Source of the DNA: Prostheceraeus crozeri
Taxonomy: Eukaryota; Platyhelminthes; Polycladida; Euryleptidae
Direction of reading: 5' to 3'
DNA: 64,000 nt
Assembly: GCA_907163375.1 (NCBI GenBank)
Contig: CAJQUW010005374.1
Coordinates: forward strand, 1-64,000
Part shown: positions 21,023 to 58,965 of the stretch, one piece after another
Numbering within the stretch: the stretch's first letter is position 1
How the letters are laid out: the number at the start of each line of letters is the position of its first letter
Notes under the pieces: model-generated
Databases searched by the model: none
Told to the model about the DNA's origin: nothing
The model's input: the letters and a program-made list of their open reading frames with translations, nothing else
Position numbers and translations under genes: made by a program

Positions 21023-21295
21023 TCAGCTCAAAACAACATCCTGTGGCAGTATTATTTCCTTTTTCAGGAAATCTGCTTTTTCAGGTCTGCTGTATTTCTG
21101 ATCAAATTGAACCATAGTGTCAGTCACTTTCTGCCCGCCAACAGGCGTGCACTTTTTGAAGTCCTCACACTTACTTAGGCAGGCTTGAATATCATCCTTT
21201 TCAAGCTTAAACTTCCTGAAATCCAATAAGGCTGTCAAGCCATCGTCTTCGTTCAAAGCATCATTGTCCAATTGTTCAAGGCATAAAATAGATTT
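21023..21295 (-). pseudogene. Ty1/copia-like Gag fragment
   Basis: The minus strand encodes NEDDGLTALLDFRKFKLEKD, then a Cys/Lys-rich stretch and MVQFDQKYSRPEKADF, ending ILPQDVVLS before a stop. The pattern G-(L)-x-x-L-L-x-F-x-x-x-x-x-K-D-D followed by (F/Y)-x-x-x-Y-x-K and LP-x-x-x-L is what I recall of Gag in copia elements of aquatic animals. Gag forms the particle that packages element RNA. The fragment has about 90 residues, no zinc knuckle and no linked pol; the copia RT piece at 18.8 kb is on the same strand but lies inside the hAT. Confidence 0.5.
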
Positions 21296-21923
21296 CGAAC
21301 CTTCAATCCTTCAGTCCATCAATCCACACTCAACTCATTTATTGCCAGGTTACTATATTTAAAAATGTCTGAAGAGTCCGAAATCAAATAATCATATTCC
21401 AACGTGATATTCTTAATGTTTCTAATAGAAGGCTCTTTAGTTAAGTATGAAGTGAATTTTACATTTTTGCTTTCCAGGATCAAATTTTGGAAGACTTTTT
21501 CATTTGGAGAAATGGCAACATCTGGTAAGCTCCGTCACATTTTTGATGTTTATCTATCAACATTTATGGCGGTATTGTCAATGTAGGGGACAATAGAACG
21601 TCAGTAAAAGTGATTATATAGAAAATTAACCAACGACCGAGATTTTTACTTCAATTTTGGAAAGCTCACTATTCAAATCACACAATCGGTCTCTGCAGTT
21701 GGTCGAAAAAAATCGTTTCATTCAACAGCCCTCCCAGAAAAGGTTTGATGCATCTTGGCATAACTACAGATCTTCTAGAACATCCCCAGGTAGTTCGTAA
21801 ACTTAAATTGTAGTGACAGTAAAAATCTACATGGGCTTTAAAAATAGTACTTAAATACTACTTACAAAATGTGAGTAATGTGAAAAAAGTTGATTTTGAA
21901 AATTCACATTTTGAGCCATTTAC
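21296..21923. other. Non-coding stretch, nothing recognised
   Basis: AT-rich, short frames only. It precedes the left long inverted repeat. Confidence 0.4.
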
Positions 21924-22275
21924 TCTGAGAAATGGTGGAAACAATTTGTGTCTATGGAGTCCTCTCATTATAATCTTTCCGAATATGGTAGCAAAATTTA
22001 CATATAATCTTCACATATGTCAATAAATTCCCTTTAGATAAAACATAAAAGTCTGTCTTTTTGAAACTTTTTTCTCTTGAAATTTGGCATATCTTTTATT
22101 TCTTAGATGTTTGAGCCGCATATCCTGCAATTTCAATGTATACATTTGTAGTGCAGATCTTTAGGAACAATTCAAGCGTTCATTCAAGGAATTCGGATCA
22201 TTGGTTCAAATTTTAGAACTGCTGAAAGACAACGTGCCACCGAAGTGAAAATGTGAATTCAGTCGGAAACATGCT
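21924..22275 (+). repeat. Left long inverted repeat
   Basis: It starts near CTGAGAAATGGTGG and ends near GTCGGAAACATGC. Shared blocks with the right copy include ATAATCTTTCCGAATATGGT, CATATGTCAATAAA, AAAATTTACATATAAT and GACAACGTGCCACCGAAGTG. It contains ~60 bp that the right copy lacks. Confidence 0.85.
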
Positions 22276-22514
22276 ATTGATAAAGTTACAAGCCCAAAAT
22301 ACTCATTTTCTCGGATATCTGATTGGATGGAGAATGAAAAATTGATTGGATGTTTTTCTAATTGCTACGGACCTATTTACTCATCGATGAAAACAAATTT
22401 TTTTGACAAATTGAATTGAGTTTCCAAAACAATCAAAATGTGAATAAAAATCAATGTTCAGTCACTATTTTCTTCCAATAACTCATCAATGGACCGATGA
22501 TTTTGGCATTCAAC

Positions 22515-22980
22515 TGAACTCATACATCCACACACTTCAGTGCATTACAAATTGTTCATTCGGCAAGAGCGGCATTTGACGACATGCACTTTTTGTGCAG
22601 TGACACACACTGTCAATTCAAGAAGACCGACTGGACAAGGCTCATTTGTCATTAATAATGGCTGTAGACTACTCTCCGTAATAATGCATCCATGTTCGGT
22701 CGGTGATGGCAAGTTAAGCATAGCCTGCATGGCTGATTTCCACACATGAGTTTGATGATTTACACGTTGAAGGTGTTGGTACAGGCAATTAGCGGTCGGT
22801 GGCAAATTTTAATTTCTTTGACCGTTCTGGCAAAACAGCCAATACCTAAGGTGATCAACATTTTTGAATGTGTTATTGCCGGAAGCATATATCGAACAAA
22901 TGAAGGATTGAAACAAACGAGCAGATGATGACAAATGCACTCATCTTTTGTGGCTTCATTAATCTCGATTTCATCTCCTA
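22515..22980 (-). pseudogene. C-terminal part of the CXC-tailed uncharacterised protein
   Basis: In minus-strand order: NNTFKNVDHLRYWLFCQNGQ, a stop, then LPPTANCLYQHLQRVNHQTH, LPSPTEHGC, CPVGLLEL and the Cys-rich end KCRSCRMNNL-stop-CTEVCGC. I recall this LPPT-x-x-x-x-x-x-H, P-x-P-x-x-x-G-W-like, L-L-E-L, then CxxC-rich CXC (tesmin/TSO1-like) order from multi-copy 'uncharacterized protein' predictions in many animal genomes; that is memory, not a search. At least two in-frame stops break it. The hAT-like insertion at 22984-23779 separates it from the rest of the gene. Confidence 0.65.
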
Positions 22981-22983
22981 GTT

Positions 22984-23779
22984 CAGTGGTTCCCAACCTT
23001 TTCATGCTGCGTACCCCAAAATGGAAAATCATAGGATTTTTCATTATTCTGCATACCCTCACCTAAAAAAATATCAAGAACTCAATCACACTAAAATTGA
23101 ATTACGTGTAGAAATATACGAAATTCGTAATTTAATAACACAAAAATTTAAGTAGGCGTAGCTGATGCGCGCTTGTGTAGCAACACAAGCGCAGCGAAAG
23201 TAATGCTCCAACATCAAACAAGCTCTTTGTTCGCTTTCAATCATTACTATGGTGGTGAATCCGGATTCGCATAAGTATGTGGTCGAGTTGGTGGTCGATA
23301 ATCAGCATGCTTCAAGGCCAGATGACAATCCAATGTGGAATCCGCACAAAGTTAACAGTGACCCATGAACAGGAAAGATATCAAAGCAAAGACGATTTTT
23401 AGAGATTGGAAGGAGCCAAATAAATTGGTAGAATTTATCTATAATTGCTAATTAGTGCAATATATTTCTGCTAGTATCCGAAGCTATCATAAGGCAGTAA
23501 GTGAATGATTTGCAGAATAAAATTTGAAATTCACATCACAAGAGATATATAAATAAAGATATACAAAATATACAAAACTATGGCAAGAGAAGGAGCTATG
23601 CGGCAGGTAGTAAAGGGTTACATAGTACCAATAGCATTTATAGCAAATGACCTGACAGGAAGACTTTGTTATTCCACAGCAATCAGATTTTTAATTCATA
23701 TCCTATTTCTTCCCTTTTTCTTCCTGTCAGGTCAATTCACAGTTGTTCGGGTACGCGTTCCCCAGGTTGGGAACCCATG
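22984..23779. mobile_element. Non-autonomous hAT-like element (CAGTGGTTCCCAACC ends)
   Basis: The left end is CAGTGGTTCCCAACC; the complement of the right end is CATGGGTTCCCAACC. Flanking 8-mers TCCTAGTT (22976-22983) and TCCTACTT (23780-23787) match at 7 of 8 positions, as expected for an aged hAT target duplication. It has no transposase. An internal 14-17 bp inverted pair (GACCTGACAGGAAG with its complement, ~23650-23735) is present. It interrupts the CXC-family pseudogene. Confidence 0.75.
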
Positions 23780-23819
23780 TCCTACTTGAATAAGACAGCG
23801 CCGATGTTCGCTATTGTCT

Positions 23820-26053
23820 ACTATCATGTTAAAAGCTTTCCTTTTTCCAAGACCAGAAAATGCACTGGTGGTATCGTATGTAATCGTAGTAACCTGTCAA
23901 TGCATGCAAACCTGGCAACAATGAATATAAATCGGCTCCCAGATTTTCAACAACTCTATGTATGGGCATGTATCTAGCTCTATCCTTTACACCAGTTCAC
24001 ATCCATAACTGTGTGCAGAGCATTTTTCGAGGTGTTTCTTTCTTGACTTTTGATTGAGATTTTGTCATACCGATTGCAGATAATATCAAGGTGCCTGCAT
24101 TCATTTCAGAATAATACTCCTGTGATTTGTTTGTAATATTAATAAGCTAGCTCCCCAAATGTCGAAGAGCCACATGACTTTGCTTTGCCATTTGCATGAT
24201 TGCCATCATATCATAGATGTTGACTGTGCTTTTGTTGCCCGTACCAGATTCCGGTAGACAAGGCTCACTTGTGATTTTATCTTCAAGCACATCGAAAAGT
24301 GCGCTTTTATTCGTTTTCCTTAGGCTACTATCTGAATATGCGATGGATGTTGACACCGCTGAAAGTTCGTAGCTTAGCACATCCTTCAAATTTAAATTTC
24401 TCAATCGAGCAACAACCATGAGGCACCCAAAAAGATTCCTGTATGCACCAATTACGAATTCTTTCTCGTCTGCTGACGTCATGATTTTCATCGTCATTGA
24501 GTCAAATAATTTGATCCTTTTTTCGGAATCGAATTTAAAAAGAATACCTTTGTATTCAATCGCTGCTCAACCAAATTCATCATTTCAATGGTGCGATTAT
24601 CGTACAAATTCAATCACTCATCAACAGAGTCTGAGTCCATCATGACACCCGTAGAAATGTTGACAAGGGGTTCAGTGCCATCCTCGTTGTCATTTAAGGA
24701 AAATGGATTGGTTATCAATTCAGATTCAAGGGCTGTTAGTGATTTCTGTACATCTTCGTCTCTCTCTACTCTTTTAGAAACTCCTTCACGGTGAGATCCT
24801 ATCCGTCTTGCGTCTTGGAGATCACACATATCTTTCAATTTTGACGTTTTCAAAGCTCGATGATGATTAGTAAGAAACCGTCGGTCTTGTGCTCCCGTTC
24901 GCTGGTTAATGCCTACGATGCCTCCAATTGTCTTTCTGTCGCGGTTGATTGATTTTTCACGTGCCATGTCCGTCCAAGTCTTTGAAAAGAGTTTAGTCGA
25001 CCGATTGATGGCATGGTCAACCTTCATAAATTCAGCATGCACGTCAGGATGAGATATACTTAGCTGATTCATATCTGACAAGTAAACTGGAAGCCATCTT
25101 GAGTGATTAGGGCGATCCATGGAAAAGAAATGCGGTTTCATGGCTGCAGTTGAAGACAAATGAAGAGGCCAATCTTCTGTTCTCTCTGCTTTGATGAAAT
25201 CTACAAGTAATTGCACCATTTCGAGATAATCACTTCAATAGGCAAACAGATTCGATTTTGTCCGTCCATAACGCTTGAATCTCTCGAGTTCTTCAGGAAG
25301 TGCCTCAGTCGTGTCACAAAATGATTTCATTGGCTTTTAGAGATCTTCTCCGTTCTCAAATGCCAGATGAAATTTTCTAGCTTGATCCATGATTGTTGAT
25401 CTATCAAGGCTGAGTAGATGTTGACTTTCTCGCCAACTTATGAAAGTCCTCCACAATATGCGAAACATGGATTCTATCACAAGTTTATGGGTCCTCACAG
25501 CTCGATTTTAGGATTTACCTTTCATGATTACTGCTGTTGTTGATTGACCGTAGGCATCGAACTGCACAAGAAGATCTTCAATTTCGGAAGACTCGTATTT
25601 TTTCCCTAAGAGTGAGAAGTAGTTCAGGACAATATGGAATCCTCCTAAACGTATAACAGTATCGTCAATTCGTCATTTCTGCGCCATTGAATCTCTTTGG
25701 CCTTAACATAAATAGCGAGATCAAATGTGATGACGTCATCTTTTTGATCAAGACTTAGCATCATAGTTTGTACTTTCTTCATGACAGTATAGACTGTGTT
25801 AAAATCTGTCGACACACCATCTATAATTGGACAACAACCAATTTCAGTTATTTCAACAGGTACGGAAGAATGAACCACGGCGTGAAAAGCAGTCCATCCC
25901 GGTATACCCTGTCTTTCCTTTTCTATCATATTCACCTCAAGTAGCTTCATTGGTATCATTCTAACCACAGATCATGCAAAATCCATTTGATGAGCTGCCG
26001 ATATAATAGATGAACTACTCTTAAACCACTCTTTCCGGTATCTCACACTTATA
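23820..26053 (-). pseudogene. Central part of the CXC-tailed uncharacterised protein
   Basis: Downward on the minus strand come WFKSSSSIISAAHQMDF, VRMIPMKLLEVNMIEKERQG, GWTAFHAVV, CCPIIDGVSTDFNTVYTVMK, VITFDLAIYVKAKEIQWRRN, RLGGFHIVLNYFSLLGK, RTHKLVIES, then MVQLLVDFIKAER (25219), LHLSSTAAMKPHFFSMDRPN, SRWLPVYLSDMNQL, VWTDMA-like and GGIVGI blocks, YELSAVSTSIAYSDSSLRKT, NRYDKISIKSQERN, and finally LPGLHALTGYDYTTSAFSGL. There are at least three in-frame stops between 25220 and 25640, a stop at 24614 and several frameshifts. About 100-150 residues seem deleted near 23.97 kb. No enzymatic motif known to me is visible, so function is unknown. Confidence 0.7.
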
Positions 26054-26200
26054 GGGCCATATGCACCAACAATAGCTTAGCCAAAGATATATCCTATGGT
26101 TTGTTAACCAGTTGGTTTTCTTTTAACCCGAAGGTAAATGCACCAAGTTTAGTCATCGATGGTTAGTAACCCATCGACGGCTAATTTATCCAACAAGAAT
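26054..26200 (+). promoter_or_regulatory. Harbinger left subterminal repeats (TAACC/GGTTA clusters)
   Basis: Besides the terminal GCACCAACA there is a second ATGCACCAAG, with repeated TTAACC, TAACCC, GGTTAG and GGCTAA motifs within ~150 bp. Myb domains typically read YAACNG/TAAC cores, so this is a plausible binding region for the element's own Myb-like protein (inference). It also lies just upstream of that gene. Confidence 0.5.
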
Positions 26201-26309
26201 TGTGATGTTTTTCTATTTATAGTACTTACGTGATCATTCTGCGTCAGCTCAACAATAGTTTAGTCGACACTCGCAGCTACAGCGGACAGTTGAAAATCCC
26301 ACATGAGCA

Positions 26310-27113
26310 ATGACTAGTCGAAGGCAACAGCGCGCTAAGAACTTTACTCCGACAGAATCAGCCACCTTATTTGAGATCATTGACCTTGATCGTGCCACTG
26401 TTCTGGAAGATAAATCGACAAACGGGCCGATGGTGAGACGCAAGACGGAGTGCTGGAACGAAATATGCACCGAGTTCAACGCCATGGGGCTGGGTATTCG
26501 AACTGCTTGTGAGCTGAAGGAGTATTCGAGACGCAAGAAGAAGGAGTTGAAGAGGGCACTATGTGAGACTCGGCGTGAAGTAAGAAGGACAGGTGGAGGC
26601 TTGGGAAAATCAGTGATGGGGCAACAGCTACAAAAATTGGCTCAGATAATTCCTCAAGAGACTTTAAATCCTCCCAGTGAATTGCTTAACATCTACGATT
26701 CCAACGCATTCATTCTCGCTGCAAACAGTGGTCAAGATATGATAACATATACAATAGATTCATCAGCAACCGATCTGCCAAAAACTTCCGGCTTGAATAA
26801 GTCTCAAACAGGTATTGGTATTCATGCGACTAATTTGGAGGACTCGGCAGCTTCATCACTCTCAAGTGAAGACGTAGAAAATAATCCTCCTGGTCCGATA
26901 ACGTCTCAACATGTCGAAGCGGAACAAATAAACGCGGGAAACATGCACAGATCCATGAACACTCGAAATAATTCACGACGCCGAAAGCGACAACCGATGA
27001 ATGAATTCCAAAGTCGATTATTGTCTTTGGCGGAGACTGAGCATCACACACGAATGGAAATATTGAACTTGAAACTGCAATATTGGAGAGGAAAAGGAAA
27101 TACATCTTCTTAA
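26310..27113 (+). CDS. Harbinger Myb/SANT-like DNA-binding protein
   Basis: A 267-residue intact frame. Residues ~8-90 form a trihelix Myb/SANT-like domain: NFTPTESATLFEIIDLDRAT, then KTECWNEICTEFNAMG, then the charged third helix KEYSRRKKKELKRAL followed by RRTGGG, the Gly-rich turn usual in these proteins. The middle is acidic/Ser-rich and disordered-looking; the last ~50 residues form a basic helix (RRRKRQPMNEFQSRLLSLAE) likely for oligomerisation or nuclear import. In Harbinger elements this second protein helps import the transposase and bind the ends. Start chosen as the first ATG in frame, 256 bp inside the element. The transposase gene lies downstream, convergent, about 500 bp away. 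Confidence 0.88.
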   Translation: MTSRRQQRAKNFTPTESATLFEIIDLDRATVLEDKSTNGPMVRRKTECWNEICTEFNAMGLGIRTACELKEYSRRKKKELKRALCETRREVRRTGGGLGKSVMGQQLQKLAQIIPQETLNPPSELLNIYDSNAFILAANSGQDMITYTIDSSATDLPKTSGLNKSQTGIGIHATNLEDSAASSLSSEDVENNPPGPITSQHVEAEQINAGNMHRSMNTRNNSRRRKRQPMNEFQSRLLSLAETEHHTRMEILNLKLQYWRGKGNTSS

Positions 27114-27618
27114 AGTAGTCTTGTGGTCGATGGTTTCTTTGTTTGATGTTATGTACATGTATACATTTTTGAAACTCGAATTTTGATGCTGTGATCTACA
27201 GTTACGTAATTCATCTTTGTAGACTTTTTTCGACCCAATATATTTTGTTGACATCAATTGTGTGTTTTAACTTGTACAAATTCTAGAGGTGGGTTGGAAA
27301 ATGGAAAGATTTTAAATTTATTCTGATAAACAAAACCTGAAATTCACCATATCTAGCATAGATTCATTTCAGTCATTCAGAAATAAGCTGCTGATATAGT
27401 AATTCTCCAATTATTGAATAGTTTTAGATGCGACAAAAATTATTTCGAAAAAATGTTGCAATTGAGAAATCTTGCGGAACTCAATTGACTCAACAAATGA
27501 CTCCCCAGAGGAAAATTTAGACTAACAGAGATAAACAAAATGGATTTACGGAGATGATGATTTATTCACGCATAGACAGATTCACAAAATACTACATCTC
27601 GGAAGATACAACATATAT

Positions 27619-28674
27619 TCAACTGGAGTTGCTAAAGTAATTCACAACAACGGAATTACGAACTGCATTTCCTCTTCGCTCATCAGGACATTCCATCGGT
27701 GTCATTAAATCCTCGCGTTCATCTATTTCTGATTTCTCGTCATCAAACTCTCTCTCGTTGCACATTATTGCAATATTGTGCAACACTGCTGTGGCGACGA
27801 TGATTCTTGGACAATTTTCAATTTTGACCCGAAGATGCTTCAAACAAGAAAAGTGGCGTTTCCACACTCCAATACATCGTTCGACAGTACATCTTGCTCT
27901 CTTTTGACTTTTGTTGTAGACTTCCTGTCCAACACTTGTGGGACAAAGGAACGGCGTGAGCAGTCCACTTGAACATCCATAACCAGAGTCACCGAGAACC
28001 CAGTAGCCTTGAGGTAGGGTAGAGATAAAGTCACGTAGAGATGATTCGTTGAAAATACGCGAGTCGTGAGCAGAGCCATACCAGCGACTAACGATGTTTC
28101 TTATTCGTAAATCACTATCACACACAACTTGTACGTTGATTGAAAAATAGTCTTTTCTATTTCGATAGAGCTCCGAAACGGATGTTGTAGGGGCGTCTAT
28201 TTTCACATGAGTACCATCCACAACGCCGACAACTCCAGGAAAATTGTGTTTTCGAAAAAATTCAGCGGCCATTTCTTGTCGTTCTTGAAAAGTTGGCAGT
28301 CGAATAAAGCGACAAGCAGCAAGAGCAATGACATTGGACACTCGATGTACTATTCTACAGGCTGTAGATTGGTGTACACCGAAACTGTCGCCATCGATAA
28401 TTTGGAATGTGTTCGCAGCAAAAAATTGTAGAGTCAGGAGCAACTGCATTTCAGGTGACACGGGATTATTTCTCTTGCTACTTACTGTTGATTCTTCTCC
28501 GAATAGTTCGAGTAGATAATGAAACGTTGCCTTAGTAAAGCGGAATCGCTGCCTAAATTCCTCTTCGCTGAACGAATCCATAACATCACTTGGACGAGTT
28601 TTGTATGTCTTCTCTGTACGTGATCCTAGCCGCGAAAGGCGATGAAGATAGTCATAGCTTTCTAGTTGATCCAT
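27619..28674 (-). CDS. Harbinger DDE transposase (HARBI1-like)
   Basis: A 351-residue intact frame, about the family's usual length. The N-terminal helical region (EEEFRQRFRFTKATFHYLLE) is followed by an HTH-like part (FGVHQSTACRIVHRV). The DDE_4 nuclease fold carries Asp153 (GVVDGTHV), Asp229 (VLGDSGYG) and Glu265 (RCTVERCIGVWK), with the S-A-H-D-S-R-I-F box at ~201-208; D229 to E265 spacing is 35 residues. All catalytic positions are present. The enzyme cuts at the inverted ends and integrates with a 3-bp duplication. Together with the Myb-like gene and good ends, it makes this copy a candidate autonomous element. Confidence 0.95.
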   Translation of the reverse strand: MDQLESYDYLHRLSRLGSRTEKTYKTRPSDVMDSFSEEEFRQRFRFTKATFHYLLELFGEESTVSSKRNNPVSPEMQLLLTLQFFAANTFQIIDGDSFGVHQSTACRIVHRVSNVIALAACRFIRLPTFQERQEMAAEFFRKHNFPGVVGVVDGTHVKIDAPTTSVSELYRNRKDYFSINVQVVCDSDLRIRNIVSRWYGSAHDSRIFNESSLRDFISTLPQGYWVLGDSGYGCSSGLLTPFLCPTSVGQEVYNKSQKRARCTVERCIGVWKRHFSCLKHLRVKIENCPRIIVATAVLHNIAIMCNEREFDDEKSEIDEREDLMTPMECPDERRGNAVRNSVVVNYFSNSS

Positions 28675-28739
28675 TTCTCTAGTCTCTGTGAATTAGCGAA
28701 ATAACAAGATACAGTTTCCACCTCCTGACGTCAAGTTGA

Positions 28740-29020
28740 AGTACACCAACGCATTCTGTGATTGGTCGGTACGAATAATGTCTGTCTTATCCAAGGTTTT
28801 AACCCTGCCCTTTAGCAAGGCTATATTTTGCTGGTTAAGTTTGCAGTTATCTCCATGGTTATCATGAAGGATTTGTTGGTGCATGCGATCCAATAACCTA
28901 CTGGCTAAGTTGCGAGTTAGCCACAGTTATTTGATGGTGCATATCGGCCTTGGTTAAATTGAAAGATAACCGCGTAATTACCTTGCTAACCGCACGGTTA
29001 GCTGTTGGTGCATACGGCCC
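28740..29020 (-). promoter_or_regulatory. Harbinger right subterminal iterated motifs
   Basis: KTTGGTGCAT-type motifs occur three times (about 28878, 28933 as GATGGTGCAT, and 29004), and more than ten TAACC/GGTTA/GGCTAA units lie within 280 bp. They overlap the likely transposase promoter, so binding could couple transposition with autoregulation (inference). Confidence 0.5.
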
Positions 29021-29023
29021 ATA

Positions 29024-29410
29024 GCCGGTAGCTGATGGACGTTTCCCATATGCATTGAATTCCAAAAGACTTTTCCATCCCTCCCACTCCAAGTGATCGT
29101 ACTCTTTTTGTATGGTCCGTGAATGAAAGGTCCATCGGCCTTGGTCCAAATGCTCCTCTTTGAGTTGCATGGGTTGTTTTGCTTCCATCAAACGTTTCCT
29201 CGTTGATATCTATGTTATCTACTGCCACTTGTGGGAATGAACCTGGTGAAATGTTTGGTGGGATCAGCACTCCGAAGAGATATGTTTTTGCAAGAGTTAC
29301 GTTCGCAAGACCTGTATCCAATATGAGCAAGTCATCATAAGAAATGCAATGTCCCATTCGATTAGGCATTGTAATAAGAAATTTTGAGCGAGTCATGTGG
29401 TGAATCACAA
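29024..29410 (-). pseudogene. N-terminal part of the CXC-tailed uncharacterised protein
   Basis: The minus strand encodes HHMTRSKFLITMPNRMGHCI, SYDDLLILDTGLANV, VLIPPNISPGSFPQVAVDNI, DINEETFDGSKTTHATQ and, after a frameshift near 29100, EFNAYGKRPSATGY up to the Harbinger insertion. The A-x-D-N-I-D-I-x-E-E-T-x-D-G-x-x-T-x-H-A-T block is the most conserved signature I recall for this multi-copy animal family. The 5' end upstream of 29410 is unclear. The other pieces are at 23.8-26.05 and 22.5-22.98 kb. Confidence 0.65.
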
Positions 29411-29561
29411 CACAGAGAGCTACATGTCATGCAGAGCATCTTTGCTCGGGCATGGGTTGCACTAAAAATTACATTGAATTACAAATGAATTTGTATAGAC
29501 TTTTATAGTCTATCCATTTCTATTCAAATGAATCAGATATGTGCTTCTGATGTTGACTAAA

Positions 29562-29853
29562 CAGCATGTTTCCGACTGAATTCACATTTTCACTTCGGTG
29601 GCACGTTGTCTTTCAGCAGTTCTAAAATTTGAACCAATGAGCCGAATTCCTTGAATGCGGCTCAAAAATCTAAGAAATAAAAGAAGAAGCAAATTTCAAG
29701 AGAGAAAAGTTTCAAATAGACAAGATTTTTATGTATCATCTAAAGGGGATTTATTGACATATGTGAATATTATATGTAAATTTTGCCACCATATTCGGAA
29801 AGATTATACTGAGAGGATTCCATAGATACAAATTGTTACCAACATTTCTCAGA
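29562..29853 (-). repeat. Right long inverted repeat
   Basis: Reverse complement of 21924-22275 with ~60 bp deleted. Key shared parts are GCATGTTTCCGACTGAATTC (29574 onward region) and ACATATGTGAATATTATATG versus the left copy's complement. See the composite element entry. Confidence 0.85.
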
Positions 29854-30038
29854 ACTTTTGAAATGTCCATGGATTTCGCGGAGATTTCTTTGAATAAATG
29901 TTTCCAATACTTCTTCAGAAATGATTTCAAGTGTATTATTGAAGAAAACATGCTTACTCACTAATTTAATAACGATATATCACAAAACCTCAAGTGAGCT
30001 GAATATGAAAACGTGTTTCGACTGGTGACTGCATGGAG
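29854..30038. other. Short intergenic stretch
   Basis: AT-rich, no recognised signal; some hints that homology to the left flank of the long repeat extends weakly here. Confidence 0.3.
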
Positions 30039-30640
30039 GGATAAGATTGTCGAGGGCTTTATCCAGGAAAAGCTGAATATACACTAGGTGACATACCACG
30101 CTCAATCACGCGTAATTACACATGACCCTAAACATCCGTGGCTATGCGGGATATTGCTGCAATATCTTTTATATAAGTTAGTATAGTTGTCAGTCCTGTT
30201 ATATAGACTTTGCGTCTCATGTGTCTGCATGTATCAGAGGCTAAACAATGTGATAGGACCTCAATTTCATGTTCAGGGAAGACAGAACATGCTTAGCGGT
30301 TCATCTTAGTGGTTCAAGCGGCAATACGACGCGCAAACTATAAATGCTCTCCTGCGCGTATTCATAAACATTTCCCATGTTTTAACAGCATCAGATCAAG
30401 TGATTTCTGACTCTTAGTGCAGCGCGCATGTACGCGGGTAGAAGAATAGAATGTCTTTAACCACGGATGTTTGGGGTGTTCCGTAATTACGCGTGAATTA
30501 CGCGTGGCATGTCACCTAGTGTAGGATTGTCGATGAATGAAGACAGGAAAAGTGAAGGATAAAATTGTCGATGAATGAATCCAGCAAAAGTCAGGGATAG
30601 GACTGTCGATGAATGAAGCCAGGAAAAGTGAAGGATTGCC
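30039..30640 (+). repeat. ~38-bp minisatellite, split by a MITE
   Basis: Units follow GGATAnnATTGTCGATGAATGAAnCCAGsAAAAGTsAr-type sequence: one diverged unit before (30039-30076) and three after (30523-30633) the MITE at 30082-30521. The MITE therefore inserted into a pre-existing tandem array. Confidence 0.75.
30082..30521 (+). mobile_element. CACTAGG-ended MITE, copy 2, TA target duplication
   Basis: The ends are CACTAGGTGACATACCACGC and GCGTGGCATGTCACCTAGTG. TA flanks both sides (30080-30081 and 30522-30523). It is 440 bp and closely related to 1525-1980. It carries a private ATATCTTTTATATAAG-like insertion near 30163 and lacks ~30 bp found in copy 1 near 1765. Confidence 0.85.
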
Positions 30641-30766
30641 AGTTTTGAAGACGGTGCTGTCCGAAGCTCCTTGAAAGTATTTTGCAAAACATGGATTTCA
30701 TCCCTACTCTGATAAACATATTTTATAAAATGAGTTCACTGACTTTGAGTAATCCTTTCTTTGCAG

Positions 30767-31663
30767 GAACTTGGAAAGTAATTATCTTTGCTGAAGATAT
30801 CAGTCTCGACAAGCATTTCCTGTTTTCACCTGAAACAACTTTGAGCGAAGTGTTGGATAGTTGGAAGAAACATTTCGGTATTTTCGGCCATTATGTCTTC
30901 AAGTCCGAGGACAGGGCTGAGGATTATGATCTGGATTTTACTCTCCGGGATGTGGGAGAGAGTAAAGATGGCTCGAAGAGGGTGGAGCTGGCGCTCGTCC
31001 TTTCAGATCTCCCGACACCTACTCCAACGCGAAACATTTATGTGGTATTGAATGGCCGATACAAACATTACCACGTGAGGCCATTTGATCGACTCAAGTA
31101 CATAATCCCAAACTCTGCTGGAATGACTTATTCATTCAATGGAAGGATTATCAATATTAGCAAGACAATTCGGCAACTGAAGATTCCTGAAAATGGAATC
31201 ATCACAGCCGTGAAAACAATCCCTGTTAAGATCTCGAATGGCAACCACAAGACATTGAATGCATTAGAGGGATCAGTGGCATCTCAGCTGAAGAATATTA
31301 TCAAGCAATTTGAGGAAGAGGATTTCTTCGTTAAATCCAAAGGACGGATTGTTCTTGGCGACGAGCTGATTGATTGTAAAGACGCCGAAGTTTCGGTGAT
31401 CAGACCGAAGTTTGAAGTGAAGATTGGACATCAAAACTTCACATTTCCCGCTAACGGAGGGAAAGTTTCCTTCCAAGACTTCACGTTTGCTCTCTCCATT
31501 GTCTCTGGAATGGAAAGGTGTGAACTCTCCCGTCACACGTACGTTTGTATGGGATGTAGAAGGCGAATTGGTGACAATGAAGAGGAAGGGCAGCTGGTCA
31601 ACATTGAGTGCTGCCGTGTCCGCTCGCTGTCGTTAAAGGTGGAAGAGGCTGCGGCTCATGAAG
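30767..31663 (+). CDS. Ubiquitin-like-fold protein, first visible coding exon
   Basis: A TTTCTTTGCAG acceptor at 30756-30766 opens an 897-nt (299-codon) exon, closed by GTGAGT at 31664. It enters and leaves in phase 1. The frame also stays open upstream to 30682, so a start at ATG 30730 cannot be excluded, but the phase-1 acceptor fits the rest of the gene. Three to four beta-grasp-like segments can be seen: GTWKVIIFAEDISLDKHFLF onward; NIYVVLNGRYKHYHVRPFDR to the NGRIINISKTIRQL block (Rad60-SLD/SUMO-like turn); VKISNGNHKTLNAL to RIVLGDELIDCKD; and FEVKIGHQNFTFPANGG onward with a CMGC motif. Function unknown: probably an adaptor or scaffold, cytosolic or nuclear, without signal peptide. Confidence 0.7.
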
Positions 31664-32784
31664 GTGAGTTGTTAACACTGTATATGTGAAATCTTGGTCT
31701 GTCATTCTGATTTAAGTTTTGAGAATGGTCAAGTCTTGTGTTTTGAAACGCAAAATACTATCTAAGGCCGCACTATTTTCTCAGCAGAATATCTTCAGAC
31801 GGAAAAGTGCTTATGCTTCATTTGGTTTGCTTATTTATACTTTCTTAAGCTTCATCAACTGTATTTCAAATCTTGCTTAACAATGCTTAAAATACGAGTT
31901 ACCGATAAATCTTGTTAGCTCCCCTAATGTATAGTTATTAGGTATGAATTTGCGGGCAGCAATGATAGAATTGCTGAATGAAGAATTCACAACGTCTGTC
32001 TTGTCTAGATGCTTGACATCAATGATGTATTCCGTGGTCGTAAGAGTGACATCATGTTGGCTTCTATCGTTCACTACACCAACGGACAGCGAATCACGTC
32101 GACTGATGAAGTCACCGTCAATATCGTGATTTCATCAGCAGTCGAAGTTCAAATGGTAAACATCTCTTTCATATCATTGTTGCATTGGTCGAATCAAACG
32201 ACTATTCCTAGGGTTAGAGGAGCAAGTCCACAACTTCAGACTAAGAAAACCTCGTACAGAATGAAATACAAGATAATTGTGTGGGACGGAAAACATGGCT
32301 GGCTGCAACTCAATCTATTACAGTTTTTGGATGCTTTCTGTGGACGCATTCGAGTACGTAAAAGTTGAGGTTGTTGAGTACGAGTTTGTTAGATGCATTT
32401 GAGCCAATGGTGAAGCCATAGACTTCTCTATAAATAGTGGTTCTGAACTGGAAGCGAAAAAAGTGCGCGTACGTTCAATACCAAAGTAGGGGTAGAGAGA
32501 AAGGCAGCCACAGGCTGCGCTCTCTGTAGGAAGCTCACAGATCATTGTCTTAACAAGACGAACATGACAGATCGGCGATGCAGCCAGCGTCATCGAAGCC
32601 TGTCTCACGTGTTGTCCATGGCATCCTCTGTCGACTACACAAAAGAAGATGAATCGATCGCTGTTGTTGCGTGAATCATCAACTAAACGCAGCTGCCAGT
32701 AAAGTGTCAATGCATTAGCTGTGTGAGACTGGTGTCAGTCACAGATAACTCAATCGGCATCCCACGTTGTCTTCCTTCGACCCC

Positions 32785-33930
32785 GGAATTCCAAAATCCA
32801 GGAAAATCTCACCCGGGATCAGCCTCGGGATTGAGTAGAATTGTAAATATCTCATTACAAAGCATAGATAGGCCTACATGTTGATAGCATGTGATGCGGG
32901 TAGTGATTTAAATGTCGGATTCCTTGGGTTAGTGCAAATCCCAAAATCCCAGGATTAATTTATCGATTCAGTTGTTATTTTGGTCGTATTTTTATAGATG
33001 GTTTACTGCTTCGGTAGGGAAAACCGAGTCGATTTTGGAATATCTTTTCAATATCTTTCTTTGAGTTACTTATTAAGAATTGTAGCCTACATATTACAGT
33101 TGTGTCAGCATATTTGCATCTGTGATTGTATACTTGCGCCCTTTGTGTTTTCTTATCACACGTGTATGTACAGGGTAGAGATTCCACAATCCCGGAAAAT
33201 CTCGGTCACAGGATACCGGGATTGAGTAGAATAGTAACTATGCCATGAAAAAGCACATGTGTTTCCCAATGATTATGCTGGGATGTGGGAATAGCAGAGA
33301 GAGGGAATTTCCAAAAGTCAGTTTACTTGCAATAGGCCTTCATCACAATTGACAAGTCAACTTAAAGTTTATTGCGTTTTATGCACAAATTGATGGCGGC
33401 AACGTTGAGAGTAACAGGGAACAGTTGCGAATTCCTGATTTTTGCACTTTCAATCTGCGATTTCTTGAGATTCGGGATTGGCAGAGTGAATATCCGGGAT
33501 TAAAGCCTGCCTACAAAGTCCCGACTTTTCTTGATCCTGGGATTTGGCATTACACTCTCTGACTCGGGTTCGAGATTCACAAAATATGAGCACACCAGCT
33601 GCATCTACAGTATATACAAGTAAAATGGCAAGATAATCAAAATCACAGCCATTTCCTCAATGCAGTGCATGAGCACATTGAGATTGCAAAATCTCTACCT
33701 CTGGATTGTACGATTGAAGAATATTTTACATGTTTTTTTACCGCAAGCTAAGCTGAATAACAACTATGGTCAAATGAGAATAATTCTTCCTGAACAGATT
33801 AATCCTGGCATTGAGTTAACCAATAGCTAATATGTAAACGAAAACTGTGGATTAATGAGAAATTTGCATCCTAAAGAACCCAATCCCGAGGATTAGCTCT
33901 ATTCCTAATCCCGGTATTGTGTATAGGCGT
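32785..33930. repeat. Scattered ATCCCGGGATT-type motifs and a ~60-bp direct repeat
   Basis: 32785-32845 and 33180-33238 are direct copies, sharing GGAAAATCTC and GGGATTGAGTAGAAT. Six or more further CCCGGGATT / AATCCCGG / TCCTGGGATT variants occur up to 33930. They could be pieces of one degraded repeat. No coding. Confidence 0.6.
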
Positions 33931-47290: not shown

Positions 47291-47469
47291 CTCATTCAAA
47301 CCATGTGAGACTTGTTGTAGCTTGCTTCCTCATGAAATCAATACCTCGGCTGACTCATCAGAATGACAGCTAACTTTCGATGCGTGCGTGGTTGTACATG
47401 AACCAAGTCTTTCACCCCGTCGGTCTACTATCTTTCGTCGAGTTGGGTTCGAGTCAATAACAAGTAATA

Positions 47470-48120
47470 ATGGATGTCAATAGAAAGAAAAGAAGCAACT
47501 TCAGCAGCAAAGATGCCTGCATTCTTGTTGAAATTTATGAAAAATATCATGCAGTGATTATTGGGAAACACCGAGGTCCAATGCGAACTCAGGATGCAAA
47601 GAGAAAAGCGTGGAACGACTTGACATCTGAATTTCATGCTCAAGCGGTGGATCAAAGACGAACTTTAGACCAAATACAAGCGAAAATTGAAAATATGAAG
47701 ACGAAGGCACGTGAACACGCTAGAAAGCAGCGATATCATGAAACTGGCGGTGGACCGGCTCCAGACTCTCCCCCAACATGGATTTCAAAAATGTTTGATA
47801 TCGTTCATGGAGCAACAGGAGACTGTTTGAATGGTATTGGATCTGGGATGGATAGCTCAGCAACCGTGAAAATATCATCTGTTGACCTCTCTACTGCAAG
47901 TCAAAACGATAACTCAGTTGATGCATCCGAAGTTAGTGATGACGAAAACAAATGGGAAGTACAACATGAAATGCCAAAGAAGCGACGCGTCTTGTCTGAA
48001 AGTAATTCAGATCTACTGACTGAACAGTTAGCAATGGTGAAAGAAAACAGAATTCTTATTGCAGAGCAAAGAAAGGAAATACAACTAAAGACGTATAAAT
48101 TGGAGCTAGAAGTTTTATAA
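47470..48120 (+). CDS. Harbinger-2 Myb/SANT-like protein
   Basis: A 216-residue intact frame starting at ATG 47470. Residues ~8-95: NFSSKDACILVEIYEKYHAV, RGPMRTQDAKRKAWNDLTSE and IQAKIENMKTKAREHARKQR, then HETGGGP. These are the three helices and Gly-rich turn of the zeste/Myb-SANT-like domain of Harbinger accessory proteins. After an acidic linker come a basic nuclear-localisation-like patch (KKRRVL) and a C-terminal amphipathic helix. Intact although its partner transposase gene is destroyed, so this copy could still feed accessory protein to other elements. ~330 bp from the left end; the transposase gene is convergent. Confidence 0.88.
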   Translation: MDVNRKKRSNFSSKDACILVEIYEKYHAVIIGKHRGPMRTQDAKRKAWNDLTSEFHAQAVDQRRTLDQIQAKIENMKTKAREHARKQRYHETGGGPAPDSPPTWISKMFDIVHGATGDCLNGIGSGMDSSATVKISSVDLSTASQNDNSVDASEVSDDENKWEVQHEMPKKRRVLSESNSDLLTEQLAMVKENRILIAEQRKEIQLKTYKLELEVL

Positions 48121-51759: not shown

Positions 51760-53395
51760 AAAAATGGATCACCCTTAAACATCGCCTTAACTTCAACTTT
51801 GTCTAACTCCGCCAAACTTGAACGAATTTCTCTGAAATTTGGAAGATATGTCAGTTGTGCTTACTAATATCATTGTTGGAAATTTCAAGCATGAATATTG
51901 AGTTGTTTTCCTGTTATAGATAAAAAGGTAGTAGATAATTTGATCTTAATTTAGCAATGTTACACAAAATCATACCTCACTCTTATAAAATTACATTTGT
52001 TTCCTTTGTTATCTAATATGTTGTTCCACAAGCCAAAAGCTATCAAGCAAAACAAAAATAGAGAAAATCGGTCAATCAGAGCCAGTATAGCACCATTATT
52101 CATAACAATAATGTAACTGCTACATGTGATTAACTGGACTTCATGTTCCATAGCTTCCTGACTTCGTTGCGGTGGTGTTTGCAACACTCCTGATTGCTTT
52201 CAGCTAGAAATCTATCTCTTACCGGTTGGAAACAATACAAAGCACAAATGAACAATAACGAGATCGCATTCACAAAAGGCAAAGTGTCAGCCTTGCTAGA
52301 ACTAGGGTTTTCTTTGCGAGCTACAAACAAGCGACTAAATGTCCCTTACACAAATGTGCATCGATGGCATAATGATGATTTTCGACTCTGTCGTAAAGAG
52401 GGCTCTGGCCGTCCACGCAAAACATCCAAACGTAGAGACCGCCTAATTTTGAGATTTGTTAAAGTTGATCCAAGTCTCTCGTTAACTGAGATGGCTGCAC
52501 TAGACTCGTCTATTTCTAAGTCCACTATTCGTAGAAGACTTATTGAGTCGAATTTCAAAAGCTGTAGGAGGCCCTCTCAGATCGAATTATCAGATCAGCA
52601 TACAAAAAGACGTCTCAGATGGGCAATGAGTCATTGTCACTGGCGAAATCAATGGGATCGGATTGTCTGGTCTGATGAGGCATCAGTCCGTCTGAAGGAT
52701 AGTGATGGTCGATTGAGATTATGGATAAAATCTGATCAGGAAATTCCGAGACATTTACGTCGTCCCCGGGTACAAGGTGGTGCGACTCTACTGATTTGGG
52801 CTGGCATTTGGACCAATGTCCGCTCTGAACTTCACATACAGCAAGGAACCATGAATTCAGAACGCTATGTGAATGTTTTGCGAATGAACATTGGCCAAAT
52901 GACAGATCAACATGGAGATCCATCGACTTGGTTATTTATGGATGATAATGCTACGTGTCACAGGAGTAGTAGTCAACTTATGCAGGTCTCAATTAGGGCT
53001 TAGGACATTATCTTGGCCAGCTCGTTCTCCTGATCTGAATCCCATAGAAAATGTATGGAGTATTCTAAAACGTAGCATTCGTCGTTCACTGCTACCTACA
53101 GATGGCGTATCACAACTTAAGTCACTGTTAGAAAGAGAGTGCACTCTCCATGGAGAAAGTTAGATCAGTCAAAAATCAACGATATCATCGAATCAATGCC
53201 TAGACGAATTGGTGATGTCATTGACAATAAGGGTAGGGCCACAAAATATTAGCTTCTTAAGAACCGTTACTGTATCATAGCTTATCAGATTATATAAGGA
53301 CATTTAAATATATTAGGGACATGAAATAACATGAAAAATGCTTTCTGTATCATACTTATGTTTTATTTAGTCAAATTTTAGGATGATCCACATTT
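51760..53395 (+). mobile_element. Tc1/mariner-type element nested in the LTR retrotransposon
   Basis: TA lies on both sides (51758-51759, 53396-53397). The ends AAAAATGGATCACCCTTAAA and, complemented, AAATGTGGATCATCCTAAAA match at 16 of 20 positions. 1636 bp with one transposase gene. It separates gag from protease. Confidence 0.88.
52248..53252 (+). pseudogene. Tc1-type transposase with two frameshifts
   Basis: The first ATG of the likely protein is 52248 (MNNNEIAFTKGKVSALLELG). Two N-terminal HTH units are visible (FSLRATNKRLNVPYTNVHRW, and GSGRPRKTSKRRD as the GRPR-like hook), then the catalytic core: WSDEAS (first Asp), FMDDNATCH (second Asp) and SPDLNPIENVWSILK (Glu), the DD34E-type pattern. 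Frameshifts near 52985 and 53148 break the frame; the last part (IIESMPRRIGDVIDNKGRAT) ends at a TAG at 53250-53252. Nearly complete but inactive as read. Confidence 0.88.
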
Positions 53396-53888: not shown

Positions 53889-55327
53889 ATGAGTAAGAAA
53901 GAGAAATCAGAAAAAGAGAATGAAATTGATGAAAATATTGAAGAGAAAGAAATAACATTCGAAACGAATATAGATCGGTGTCAACTAATAAAAGAACAAG
54001 AAAGCGATGAAGAATTACAAAACATCTCCGCAGAACTGAACGAGAGAGATAAGAATGAGCGCATTTACTTTTACAAGCAAAATGGTATCCTATTTCGTTG
54101 CTGGAAACCAAGAGAAGCCACTCCTGAAGAAACATGCAAGAAGTACATCAAATTGTAATACCTAAGTCATATCGACAAAAAGTCTTAAGCGTTGCACACG
54201 AAAACGTATTAAGTGGTCATCTCGGTGTACGCAAAACTCACTATCGAATATTGAAGCATTTTTACTGGCCGAAAAATGTACAAAGATGTAGCTAACTTCT
54301 GTCGAACTTGTCATACATGTCAGATAGTTGGTAAACATCAGTTAGATCCTCCGAAAGCGCCGTTAATTCCAATCCCTGCGTGCGAAGAACCATTCAGTAA
54401 TATCATTATTGATTGTGTTGAACCTTTACCACGAACCAAAATGGGACATGAATATCTATTTACAATTGTGTTCGTCAACCAGATTTCCAGAAGCTATCCC
54501 ATTGAGAAGCATTAACGCCAAAAATATTTGTTCGGCTTTGATCAATTTCTTTACTATGGTGGGATTACCGAAAGTCATACGCTCAGATCAAGGCACGAAC
54601 TTTACATCGAAGATATTTAGTCAAGTGTCAGAAGTACTTGGAGTAAAACATATTTGTTCAACTGCTTATCATCCAGAATCTTCAAGGTGCGTTAGAACGA
54701 TTCCATCAGACATTGAAAGTTATGATGAAAACTTACTGTGAAGAACATCAAAAGGACTGGAATTTAGGTATACCAATGCTATTATTTGCCATCCGCGAAA
54801 CAGTTCAAGATTCACTCGGATTTAGTCCATTTGAATTAATTTACGGTCATGAAGTTAGAGGACCCCTGAAGTTGATGAAGGAAAATATGCTCAGCGAAGA
54901 GAAGAAAAGCACGAATTTGTTAGACTACGTGTCTGAGATCAAAGAAAGACTCACTGAAATACAAAAGTCTGCAAAGGCTAATCTAATAAATTCGCAAAAT
55001 AAAATGAAGAAGCAATTTGACAGAAACACAAAAGAAAGAACATTTCAGCAAGGTGAAAAAGTACTCTTATTATCATTGCCAATCTCGGGAGATCCGATGA
55101 AGGCAAGGTATCAAGGTCCTTATATGATACAAAAGAAAATAAGTGAAGTCAACTATGTTATAGAAACTCCGGATAGAAGAAAGAAACAAAGAATGTGTCA
55201 CATAAATATGCTCAAGAAATATCACGACCGAGACGAAGAGTCAACAACTGAGTCAAACCCTTCTGATGCTGTGCCGGAGAATCTGGTGTCAACATCGCAG
55301 ACGAATTTGCCCGCACTGGGTGATATA
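53889..55327 (+). pseudogene. Integrase of the LTR element, upstream of RT
   Basis: An H-x-x-H / C-x-x-C zinc domain is spread over two frames (SGHLGVRKTHYRILKHFYWP and CRTCHTCQIVG). The RNase-H-like core follows: IIIDCVEPLP (first Asp), KVIRSDQGTNFTSKIF (second Asp) and, in a third frame, the ALERFHQ Glu. The long C-terminal tail (FDRNTKERTFQQGEKVLLLS, then GPYMIQKKISEVNYVIE and CHINMLKKY) has the GPY-like module of Ty3/gypsy integrases. It reads open to 55327, where the CACTA-like element begins. Integrase inserts the cDNA. At least three frame changes. Confidence 0.85.
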
Positions 55328-58300
55328 CACTGTAATCTGGCACCTCCTAAAGTGGAAGAAATCTACATCCTAAAGCGCCACACACTAAAATTTCAGAAGG
55401 CTATGTTGAATTAGTAGGTGAGCATACTGAAGAGAACAATAACCCTTAGACGTAAGCAGCTGCATAGAGGAGAGCGTGAGTCACTGCTTGCCAGACAGCC
55501 GGGGCGCTGTCGCATAACAATAGCTGCTATTGAGTACATCATAAGTTCACGTTGCTGTATGTGGACTTCGCTTCATCTATCCAAGGTTATGTAGCTGGCT
55601 TTGACTTCGAGTGGCAAGTTGACTTTCCGTCAGTGATATTGCAATTAAATTGTTTATTGAAATTAGCTGTTGAAGTTGTGCGGTAGTAAATTGCAAATAC
55701 GAGCGTATATGGATATCATGATGTCATACCAGGAGACTACATCTTTCCCATCAACGTCGATCGAAATACGAGATAAATGGAAAAGAAATATAGTAAAACT
55801 TGAATCTAAATGGCCGAAAATTTGCATTCTACATTTTCTCGTGACAGTCAATCAAGTTGATATACTAATCAATCTGGTTCATCAACTAACGGCAGCTCTG
55901 AAAAATGAGGTGAGTTTCCTGTTGCTCTGATAGCCTATTCGAAAGAGTTGTAATACATGCATGCTGTATAGCACTAATGTAAACCAAGTTTAAGACTTCT
56001 TTAGTTAAAATGCCACTTTTTATAACGGGAATAAATAAATTTTTGCGGATAATGCAAATTATAAATTGGAAAAGCTGTAAATTTTCGAGGTAGGCATACA
56101 TTGTATTTGTCAATTTTATGCATTCAGTAGCGTTATCTGTGCACGGCAAAGCCTCTGAGAAGCAAATGCGTACTCATAGAAACTGCTCAAAGTACTCACT
56201 GTTATTTAAGTGGCGTGTCCAATAAGGCTTCCGAACGAAGGCAGAAAAATACACGCATATGAAGGGTTAATTGAATTGACATATCAAGTGTTTGATTCAA
56301 CCTGCTAATGTAAGCATTTATCACCAACTGTCATGATAATCTATAGTCAGATAGCTGTATAGACATCGAAAAAATGTAATAGACGACACTGAAGGACGCT
56401 CGTTTCCATGATGTAGTAGAATAATTGTCTTCAGTCTTTCCTGATTCGGACATTTAAGAAGAAACATATTCTTGTAAACTTATGCTTAAAATTTCGCATT
56501 CAATCTTCTAAACTTTTTTTATCTATTTTGTTAACTTTCTGCCGCCACATAGTTGCGAATTCGCTTAATAAGTATTAATCAAAATATATGAAATTCCGGA
56601 TGTTGAACTAGGGCTGCGAGACTATACTGAAACATTAAATCGTCTATACTTCTATATAGAATCTTCTGCCAATAATTATCCTTCTTGTCAGTATTGAAAT
56701 AACTGCGGTTTTTCTACAATGTCCAGACACTATTGTATGCAACGTATTTTTAATGTGCGGCGTTAAGTGCTCGACTTCCTATAAATATTCATTCCATCCT
56801 GTTGGCTACTTTTAAAAATAAATCCATTTTAGCAATGAAAGTCTCTCACATACTCTATTCATATTAGTCATTATTATTAAGTTCTCAACGTAGCATAATA
56901 TCAAGGTGAAAAATAAACTATAGCACAAATAGGAAAGACCAAACAGTCATCATCGCAAAAAAGGGAGATAAATTACCAATAACTTACATAGAATGTTTCT
57001 ATTCTGTAAAAATACATGATAAGGCAAGAAAATGTCCGCCTATTGAATGGAACTTTTTTATTCTTTCTCATAAAATCATCTCATGATCAGCATATCATGC
57101 TGATTTCCTGAAACGAACTATACTCACATAGAACCAAGACCTCTGACGTTGAACAGTTTCAGACACCTTCACAATGACTATTAAATCACCGTAGAAAAGG
57201 AGAAATTCCATTATTTAATTTTTATAAAAAAATTTAACGACGATCTTTGGCCATATAAGTCTAGTTAATATTTCTGAAATCAACTTAGCTCATGCATGTT
57301 TGGTGGAGACCTGTGACGCTGATATTGTTTTCACCTGATTAGTAAGTGCGGCTACTTGTTGCCGACACATAGCAGTTTACAAGACAGTGTATGCTGTCTG
57401 AAGTGGGAGAATCAACAAGAAACATGTGCAGTATTGCATTATAACTTTCAAACGAAAATTAATACTTGTGAATATGGATTATTAGCATAATATTTGCTAT
57501 TTGTTGAAGATCTGAAACTCGTGAATTTCCATAATCTGTAGAACATCAAATTACTAAGAAAGGAGACAATTTTCCGCAACAAGAGGTTTCAATAATTTTA
57601 TCAAAATACAGGTACATGTATTCAATTCAGCATTGATAAACTATATTATGTAGGCGTATATCAAAATAAATAGCGTAATAAAAATAATTAAATAACATGA
57701 TGTGCTCTGTGTATGCCTGTTTATGAGAAATTCTATTGTTTTCAATTATCTGTCAAATAAAAAACTTCGAATTTATGAAGAAATCATAATTTGCTCAGCC
57801 TGTTTCATGTAACATCTAGTTCTGACGATCTTGTCTCTTAAACTTAATTATTTCTTTCCCTTCACTCCATAGTTCGTAACTAAAATTCCTTTTTCTTTTC
57901 AGCAATCATTTCGACTTGAATATCAGTGAATACAAATATGTGGTGTCCAAAAATTAGATATGTGCTTTGACGGATGGAGCATCTACCATCATGGAATATG
58001 AAGTCTTGTTTCTAACGTATAATCTCCAGCACAATTGACAGTACTTGGCCACCATAGAAACTGCTGGAAGGACTTCTTCCTGTACTTTACATCTTCACCA
58101 AGATCAGCGCAAAAATCTGTGAATTTTTTTTGGTGCCATAAATTACTTTGAATTCTTTCGTTTCCATCTTTCTATAATAATTCCTTGATGTTTTCCATGA
58201 TGTTTTAGAGTTGCAATTTCTGTGAGTTTAGATCGTAATTTGATTGAAAAAAATAGATATTGCTTTGCTTATCTAGCACTTGATTGTTATTGTCTTGATA

Positions 58301-58963
58301 TTGAGACTCTATTTGTTACTTTATCTTTATTGCAACTGTTGATCTACGACTTCACACATGCTTTTATCCACATAATTCTGTAATAAAAATTTCTGACATT
58401 TTATACTGTCCCGACACTGATTATATTATATAGCATTTGTATTTTTGTCACCGAAAATTGCGTTGTCAGGCCAAAATTTTCATTGTACATGTATACATGA
58501 GATTTCGTTGTAGGCTATCTGTTACATCAATAGACCTATGATTGTGTTCATTTTGGTGCTGGGTGTCAATTTTATAAATTTCAAGTGAATTTCAGTAAAG
58601 GTTGCTGTATGTATTCGAATTGTACAACACTAATGACATGTTCTCTTGCATACAGTACCACATGGATCAAAGGGTTCTTATTTCCTTAGAGGGTTGTTTG
58701 TAAAGAAAGAGATAAATATTGAGTAAATTTAATGGGAGGTTTGTCTGCAACAAATCTCAATGCGCAACCCGTCTATTGCTGAATAAAGATACTAGTATGA
58801 ACTGTCATAAGGGAATGTAGAATATGGCATTGAAAAAATGTTTTAGGAGGTGAGAGGCTAGCCTTCTAAAAGGCGCATGCTTTAGGATTTTTTTATTAGT
58901 TACGAATAGTGTCTTGCTTTAGGAGGTGATTCAGCTTGCTTTAGGAGGTGCTGGTTTACAGTG
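55328..58963. mobile_element. Non-autonomous CACTA/EnSpm-like element nested in the LTR retrotransposon
   Basis: Ends are CACTGTAATCTGGCACCTCC and, complemented, CACTGTAAACCAGCACCTCC; TA flanks both (55326-55327, 58964-58965). Subterminal CACCTCCTAAAG/CTTTAGGAGGTG units recur at 55341, ~58846, ~58918 and ~58938, as in CACTA-type elements. 3636 bp with no recognised transposase; open frames inside (for example 55670-55930) are not recognisable. Skipping it and one TA leaves the integrase and RT in one continuous frame. Assignment to CACTA rests on the CACTG ends and iterated motifs. Confidence 0.75.
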
Positions 58964-58965
58964 TA

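Follow-up and report, generated by a model that had tools for sequence, protein, structure and literature searches.

Within a 64,000-nt stretch of the genome of the polyclad flatworm Prostheceraeus crozeri (assembly GCA_907163375.1, contig CAJQUW010005374.1, positions 1 to 64,000; hereafter the window), a minus-strand pseudogene lies between long terminal inverted repeats (TIRs). We consider it very probable that the two together form a decayed DNA transposon of the cut-and-paste kind, belonging to the AcademX type within the Academ superfamily, an assignment based on published description (domains and duplication length). The copy in the window is dead: its 5′ end is truncated, its gene contains stops and frameshifts, the N-terminal third was not found in its family, and two transposons are inserted in it (Table 1).

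Using tblastn with a 1615-aa relative, P0012, we recovered residues 433–554, 580–1083, 1086–1244, 1376–1450, and 1457–1611 in sequence, descending from 29426 to 22470, gaps included, two of them at insertions. A preliminary description of this DNA, made from sequence alone, had likewise placed the pieces in one order on the minus strand, starting from the block that reads AVDNIDINEET. It had also recognized two unrelated transposons inside, which we identify as a PIF/Harbinger element between P0012 residues 554 and 580 and a short, presumably hAT-like element (so labelled from its end motif) between residues 1450 and 1457, i.e., between the nuclease remnant and the CXC segment. The nuclease remnant is matched by P0012 residues 1181–1244 (E 2e-4), 1376–1417 (E 6e-10), and, weakly, 1387–1450 (E 0.03); tblastn found no match in the window for the nuclease middle (residues 1245–1375). 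Residues 1–432, which comprise the N-terminal Cys/His region, had no tblastn match in the window element, nor in the further family copies read, except from residue 367 in locus L023. The window family is therefore either shortened or diverged at the N-terminus. Pfam returned no believable match for the eight window gene pieces (best E 0.03). DDE_Tnp_4 is absent from the Pfam matches of these pieces and of 13 relatives, and is found only in the nested Harbinger. We rejected PIF/Harbinger as the identity of the enclosing element, as the DDE_Tnp_4 and Myb-like open reading frames (ORFs) belong to the nested 26054–29020 insertion.

Full-length relatives are single proteins of about 1500–1600 aa, with an N-terminal Cys/His region, a DDE transposase, an EXO1/FEN1/XPG-type nuclease, and a CXC tail, in that order. 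Relatives are found in amphioxus, sea anemones, corals, and a sea cucumber. Structure prediction, to which the preliminary description had looked for a nuclease fold, gave an RNase-H-type fold. For the transposase half, a DDE domain of RNase H fold is predicted in which a long helical insertion separates the second Asp from the Glu, and its predicted nearest neighbors are Hermes and RAG1 (Hermes/RAG/Transib type). The second half is predicted to adopt an EXO1/FEN1/XPG-type nuclease fold with seven conserved acids; unlike the EXO1/FEN1/XPG 5′ nucleases, this putative nuclease is a domain of a transposon protein. The catalytic acids are conserved among relatives. The CXC-like tail is hence not the only known-type motif, as had been proposed, since the predicted nuclease domain precedes it and had gone unnoticed at 23780–24231.

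Searches by name and by fold were less informative. In a Pfam scan of the 13 relatives taken up to E 1, the believable names were DUF6589, which extends approximately from the second Asp of the transposase to its Glu helix, and CXC only; on P0012 the TCR/CXC match falls below the cut-off. A PDB sequence search with P0012 returned one chance match only, and a search with profile A2 returned EXO1 only, at a merely suggestive E of 2. Foldseek with the transposase half gave no significant match, which says nothing on the fold either way.

The inverted repeats that had been described around the gene are confirmed as three pairs of arms: 21924–22054/29723–29853 (92% identity), 22047–22121/29655–29729 (85%), and 22181–22278/29560–29657 (98%). 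Aligned whole, the window TIR arms are 77% alike with gaps counted and 87.5% alike by letters only. The repeats are real, but their supposed outer edge at 21924 is not the end of the element: other copies remain homologous to the window beyond it, to 21695–21697 in seven ends. In most remaining ends the homology stops at 21711–21794, where the terminal stretch is different or lost. The symmetric placement of the repeats around the pseudogene holds only approximately. The family terminus consists of TAGGCAAGGAGCAGTT, a stretch that is unlike between the two ends (16 vs 25 bp), and the long shared TIR; on the 3′ side of the gene it continues GGTCGAAAAAAATCGT, and on the 5′ side TCTCATACGGGCTCTAATTAAGGAG. 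The window's left TIR lacks the outermost 10 bp of this terminus (TAGGCAAGGA). By analogy with two related families, we take the TA before GGC to belong to a TAG terminus, and on that ground rejected TA as a target duplication.

We searched the host genome (2.05 Gb, 14165 contigs, the window contig being C4466) for further copies. For the left arm we found at least 40 matching places, distributed over 33 contigs (best candidates scored), so the window's inverted repeats are not a chance occurrence. Of the 32 contigs besides the window's, 20 were read around the TIR match (L009–L028). All 20 loci, like the window, have parts of the pseudogene's protein inward of the TIR, although L020 and L027 each show only one of the eight gene pieces. 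Among the 12 contigs left unread, 7 have a match to the core protein no more than 10 kb from the TIR, and 5 are not among the matches listed. Both TIRs are visible in 10/20 loci (L009, L010, L011, L013, L014, L015, L017, L022, L025, and C1450, with L029). The distances between repeat and gene, whose constancy the preliminary description had proposed to check, proved near-constant in most loci: the gap from the TIR to the first gene piece on the 5′ side is 107–135 bp in 12 of the 15 loci showing both (exceptions L009, L023, and L024; L014 is without the first piece), and that from the Cys tail to the TIR on the 3′ side is 257–309 bp in 12 of 14 (exceptions L011 and L012). Presence of the TIR at least 40 times would also suit unrelated miniature inverted-repeat transposable elements that flank a host gene family by chance. 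The gene pieces inside the TIR in every further locus read, their near-constant spacing in most, and a window-family terminus that begins TAG, as do the ends of two related families, argue against this explanation, which we reject for these loci as exceedingly improbable.

Flanking DNA is common to the window and L016–L020, so the loci are not all independent. In the window and L017, the 3.5 kb beyond the right end is common and 98% alike, and the L017 copy is truncated at the same right-end point. Given these shared surroundings, we treat the window and L016–L020 as one insertion copied with its surroundings. The insertion and its surroundings (window 21140–33000) recur on these six contigs, which are 59–99 kb long and 91–98% alike; this recurrence is either a large repeated host segment or a set of uncollapsed haplotypes.

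A genome search with the 206-aa core gave at least 152 matches (502 candidates, 150 scored), a number of which fall within frames open for more than 1000 codons. Two related families were resolved, with elements of about 7.4 kb whose TIRs start with TAG (TAG...CTA termini). The first includes C8704 and C5762, which are 99.2–99.6% alike, with one 1507-codon frame each, 547-bp TIRs, and ends TAGTGGAGCAGCTTA. The second, with ends TAGTCTGGGAGCCAAG, includes C6296, with one 1600-codon frame and 671-bp TIRs that are 99.7% alike, and C8933, whose frame has 1124 codons. At L038 (2733–7532), the 1600-codon ORF of a relative has Val in place of one of the seven nuclease acids (in the alignment, at the D898 position), and its nuclease is possibly altered.

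In these two families, 6/7 two-ended copies are flanked by a perfect 3-bp target duplication: C8704 (ACA/ACA), C5762 (TCT/TCT), C4143 (ATT/ATT), C2634 (ACA/ACA), C6296 (AAA/AAA), and C8933 (TAA/TAA), with C9649 (ATA/AGG) the non-match. Chance would give a perfect triplet match in about 1 in 64 copies. The fourth base in register matches in none of the six. The stretches taken show one end for C2104 and C8811 and none for C7396. The window family has no perfect target duplication among copies with both original ends in view; C1450 (ATC/TTC) and L011 (ACA/ATA), both old copies, match at two of three positions, and L013 does not match. For the window copy itself, we infer a 3-bp duplication. The constant-length target duplication raised in the preliminary description is thus found in the related families and only imperfectly in the window family. 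Its suggestion that the family is itself mobile holds, with TIRs accompanying the gene in all 20 further loci and 3-bp duplications in the related families.

The AcademX lineage of Academ was reportedly set out by Kojima in 2020. Its nuclease is of the XPG type, and Academ hosts include kinds such as amphioxus, sea anemones, corals, and sea cucumber. In the literature, AcademX is described with a nuclease and 3–4 bp duplications and AcademH with a helicase and 9–10 bp duplications (PMC10045372); Academ is listed among the DDE superfamilies, with mention of accessory enzymes (PMC9587614, PMC3627910), including a RecQ helicase (PMC3627910). We find the AcademX combination in the window element and its relatives: a predicted RNase H DDE transposase and a predicted nuclease, 3-bp duplications in the related families, TIRs (547, 671, and about 584 bp), and relatives in aquatic invertebrates. 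Size is also similar, at about 5.5 kb for the 5′-truncated L017 copy and about 7.4 kb for the related families, compared to an Academ mean of 5565 bp in bivalves, in a study whose mollusc library has 100 curated Academ consensus elements (PMC10294476). Unlike AcademX, the window family is without the N-terminal ~430 aa and is decayed. As a DDE transposase, a nuclease, and 3-bp duplications match AcademX as published (PMC10045372), the proposal of an undescribed class with an unnamed enzyme is unsupported.

Other known groups share some of these features. AcademH belongs to the same superfamily, and DUF6589, matched in relatives of the window-element transposase, is common in fungi, where AcademH occurs. 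Scanned with Pfam at E up to 1, the 13 relatives gave no helicase family, and the duplications in the related families are 3 bp, not 9–10 bp. With hAT (Hermes), RAG1/Transib, and ISCth4, the element shares a predicted RNase H fold in which the catalytic Glu is preceded by a long helical insertion. Unlike hAT and Transib, whose target duplications are 8 bp and 5 bp, respectively, it has a fused nuclease, a CXC tail, and 3-bp duplications in its relatives; no match to PF05699, the hAT dimerisation domain, was found on the 13 relatives. KDZ/Zisupton and Kolobok were rejected, as their 8-bp and TTAA duplications, respectively, do not agree with 3 bp here. Literature searches on CXC transposons, DUF6589, and Academ with XPG returned nothing useful.

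An alternative is an undescribed superfamily, separate from AcademX and similar to it in domain composition only. This would also fit a likeness drawn from description, and relatives whose believable Pfam names are limited to two, one of which (DUF6589) has no mention in the literature searched. We regard this as highly unlikely, since a nuclease-bearing DDE element with 3-bp duplications fits AcademX as published (PMC10045372), and the hosts of the relatives are of the kinds from which Academ is known.

In arm-to-arm alignments of seven two-ended copies from the window family, three (L009, L011, and L014) showed the 3′-type terminus at both ends, with the outer host DNA itself forming an inverted repeat of 397, 87, and 437 bp, respectively, and a whole-arm identity of 97.5–99.5%. 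In L011, 41 bp of the original 5′-type terminus (628–668) survive outside the copied flank. The TIR cores within a copy are 98.3–100% alike in L009, L010, L011, L013, and L014, compared to 90–93% to the nearest other copy compared; the window (87.5%) and L017 (90.4%) are exceptions. The gene cores of those five copies have stops or gaps in most cases.

The inverted flanks probably arose by TIR-to-TIR repair or gene conversion running into the flank: a cut at one end would be repaired from the opposite TIR, and the repair would run through into that TIR's flank. Assembly artefacts could produce both the inverted flanks and the near-identical TIRs, as inverted repeats are error-prone in assembly, but the flank copies stop after 87–437 bp in different sequence, the whole arms fall short of complete identity, and L011 keeps its original terminus beyond the copied flank; we consider artefacts unlikely, and less likely than repair. 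An unlikely extension is that one-ended cleavage and opposite-TIR repair, aided by the fused FEN1/EXO1-type nuclease, rewrite the element ends. If true, the TIR arms of each copy would be kept nearly identical, the 3′ end with up to ~440 bp of inverted host flank would occasionally be copied over the 5′ end, and a TIR-homogenising, flank-capturing repair route would be tied to the transposase-nuclease fusion.

Table 1. Coordinates of the window element, its nested insertions, and copies with inverted flanks
Feature	Position	Strand	Basis or remark
Left TIR (gene 3′ side), about 584 bp	21695..22278	+	Homology end in seven ends of other copies; terminus comparison
Right TIR (gene 5′ side), truncated at 29853	29560..29853	-	Outer ~230 bp absent
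Pseudogene of DDE-transposase/XPG-type-nuclease/CXC protein	22470..29426	-	tblastn with P0012, colinear residues 433–1611
First catalytic block, predicted RNase H fold (VDNIDINEET; D150, P0117 numbering)	29001..29426	-	Sequence and tblastn
Second catalytic Asp block (VITFDLAIY; D329 in P0117)	25630..26031	-	Sequence and tblastn
Conserved core, catalytic Glu helix (TDMAREKSIN; E586 in P0117)	24617..25234	-	Longest open stretch of gene in window, 206 aa
Putative EXO1/FEN1/XPG-type nuclease remnant (N-terminal YDMMAIMQ; LPGLHALTG helix-hairpin region)	23780..24231	-	tblastn; predicted fold
C-terminal segment with degraded CXC (tesmin/TSO1-like) cysteine tail	22470..22931	-	tblastn with P0012
Nested PIF/Harbinger transposon	26054..29020		Pfam on its ORFs; 3-bp duplication ATA
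Harbinger Myb/SANT ORF	26307–27113	+	Pfam
Harbinger DDE_Tnp_4 ORF	27619–28692	-	Pfam
Nested short, presumably hAT-like non-autonomous element, CAGTGGTTCCCAACC end	22984..23779		Flanks tcctagtt/tcctactt, 7/8 alike
Copy with inverted flanks, L009	363–5980		Arm alignment and terminus comparison
Copy with inverted flanks, L011	628–7760		Arm alignment and terminus comparison
Copy with inverted flanks, L014	325–5197		Arm alignment and terminus comparison

Beside the element, a 346-codon open frame (30649–31686, plus strand) looks ubiquitin-like by eye and has no Pfam match at E 0.01, and 38–39-bp tandem and inverted repeats (30042–30636) adjoin the right flank; both features are also present in L017 and L020. 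Elsewhere in the window are mobile-element remnants: a Myb/SANT ORF (47461–48117, plus), a Tc3-type transposase (52194–53000, plus), a retroelement integrase C-terminus (54647–55411, plus) and reverse transcriptase (58945–59877, plus), and a hAT dimerisation region (62376–62771, minus).

We propose that the DDE domain would cut at the TAG ends and attach these to a target site cut with a 3-bp stagger. The fused putative nuclease may trim 5′ flaps or gaps at the element ends, and the CXC tail and N-terminal Cys/His region may bind DNA. Relatives are listed as 'hypothetical', 'uncharacterized', or 'CXC domain-containing' proteins in several animals; our analysis points to a likely transposase-like function for them, to be masked in genome annotation. 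The two enzyme halves are each given a predicted fold, the DDE domain near Hermes/RAG/Transib and the second half with EXO1/FEN1. The near-identical open-frame copies in one genome make a role for a transposon-borne flap-type nuclease testable.
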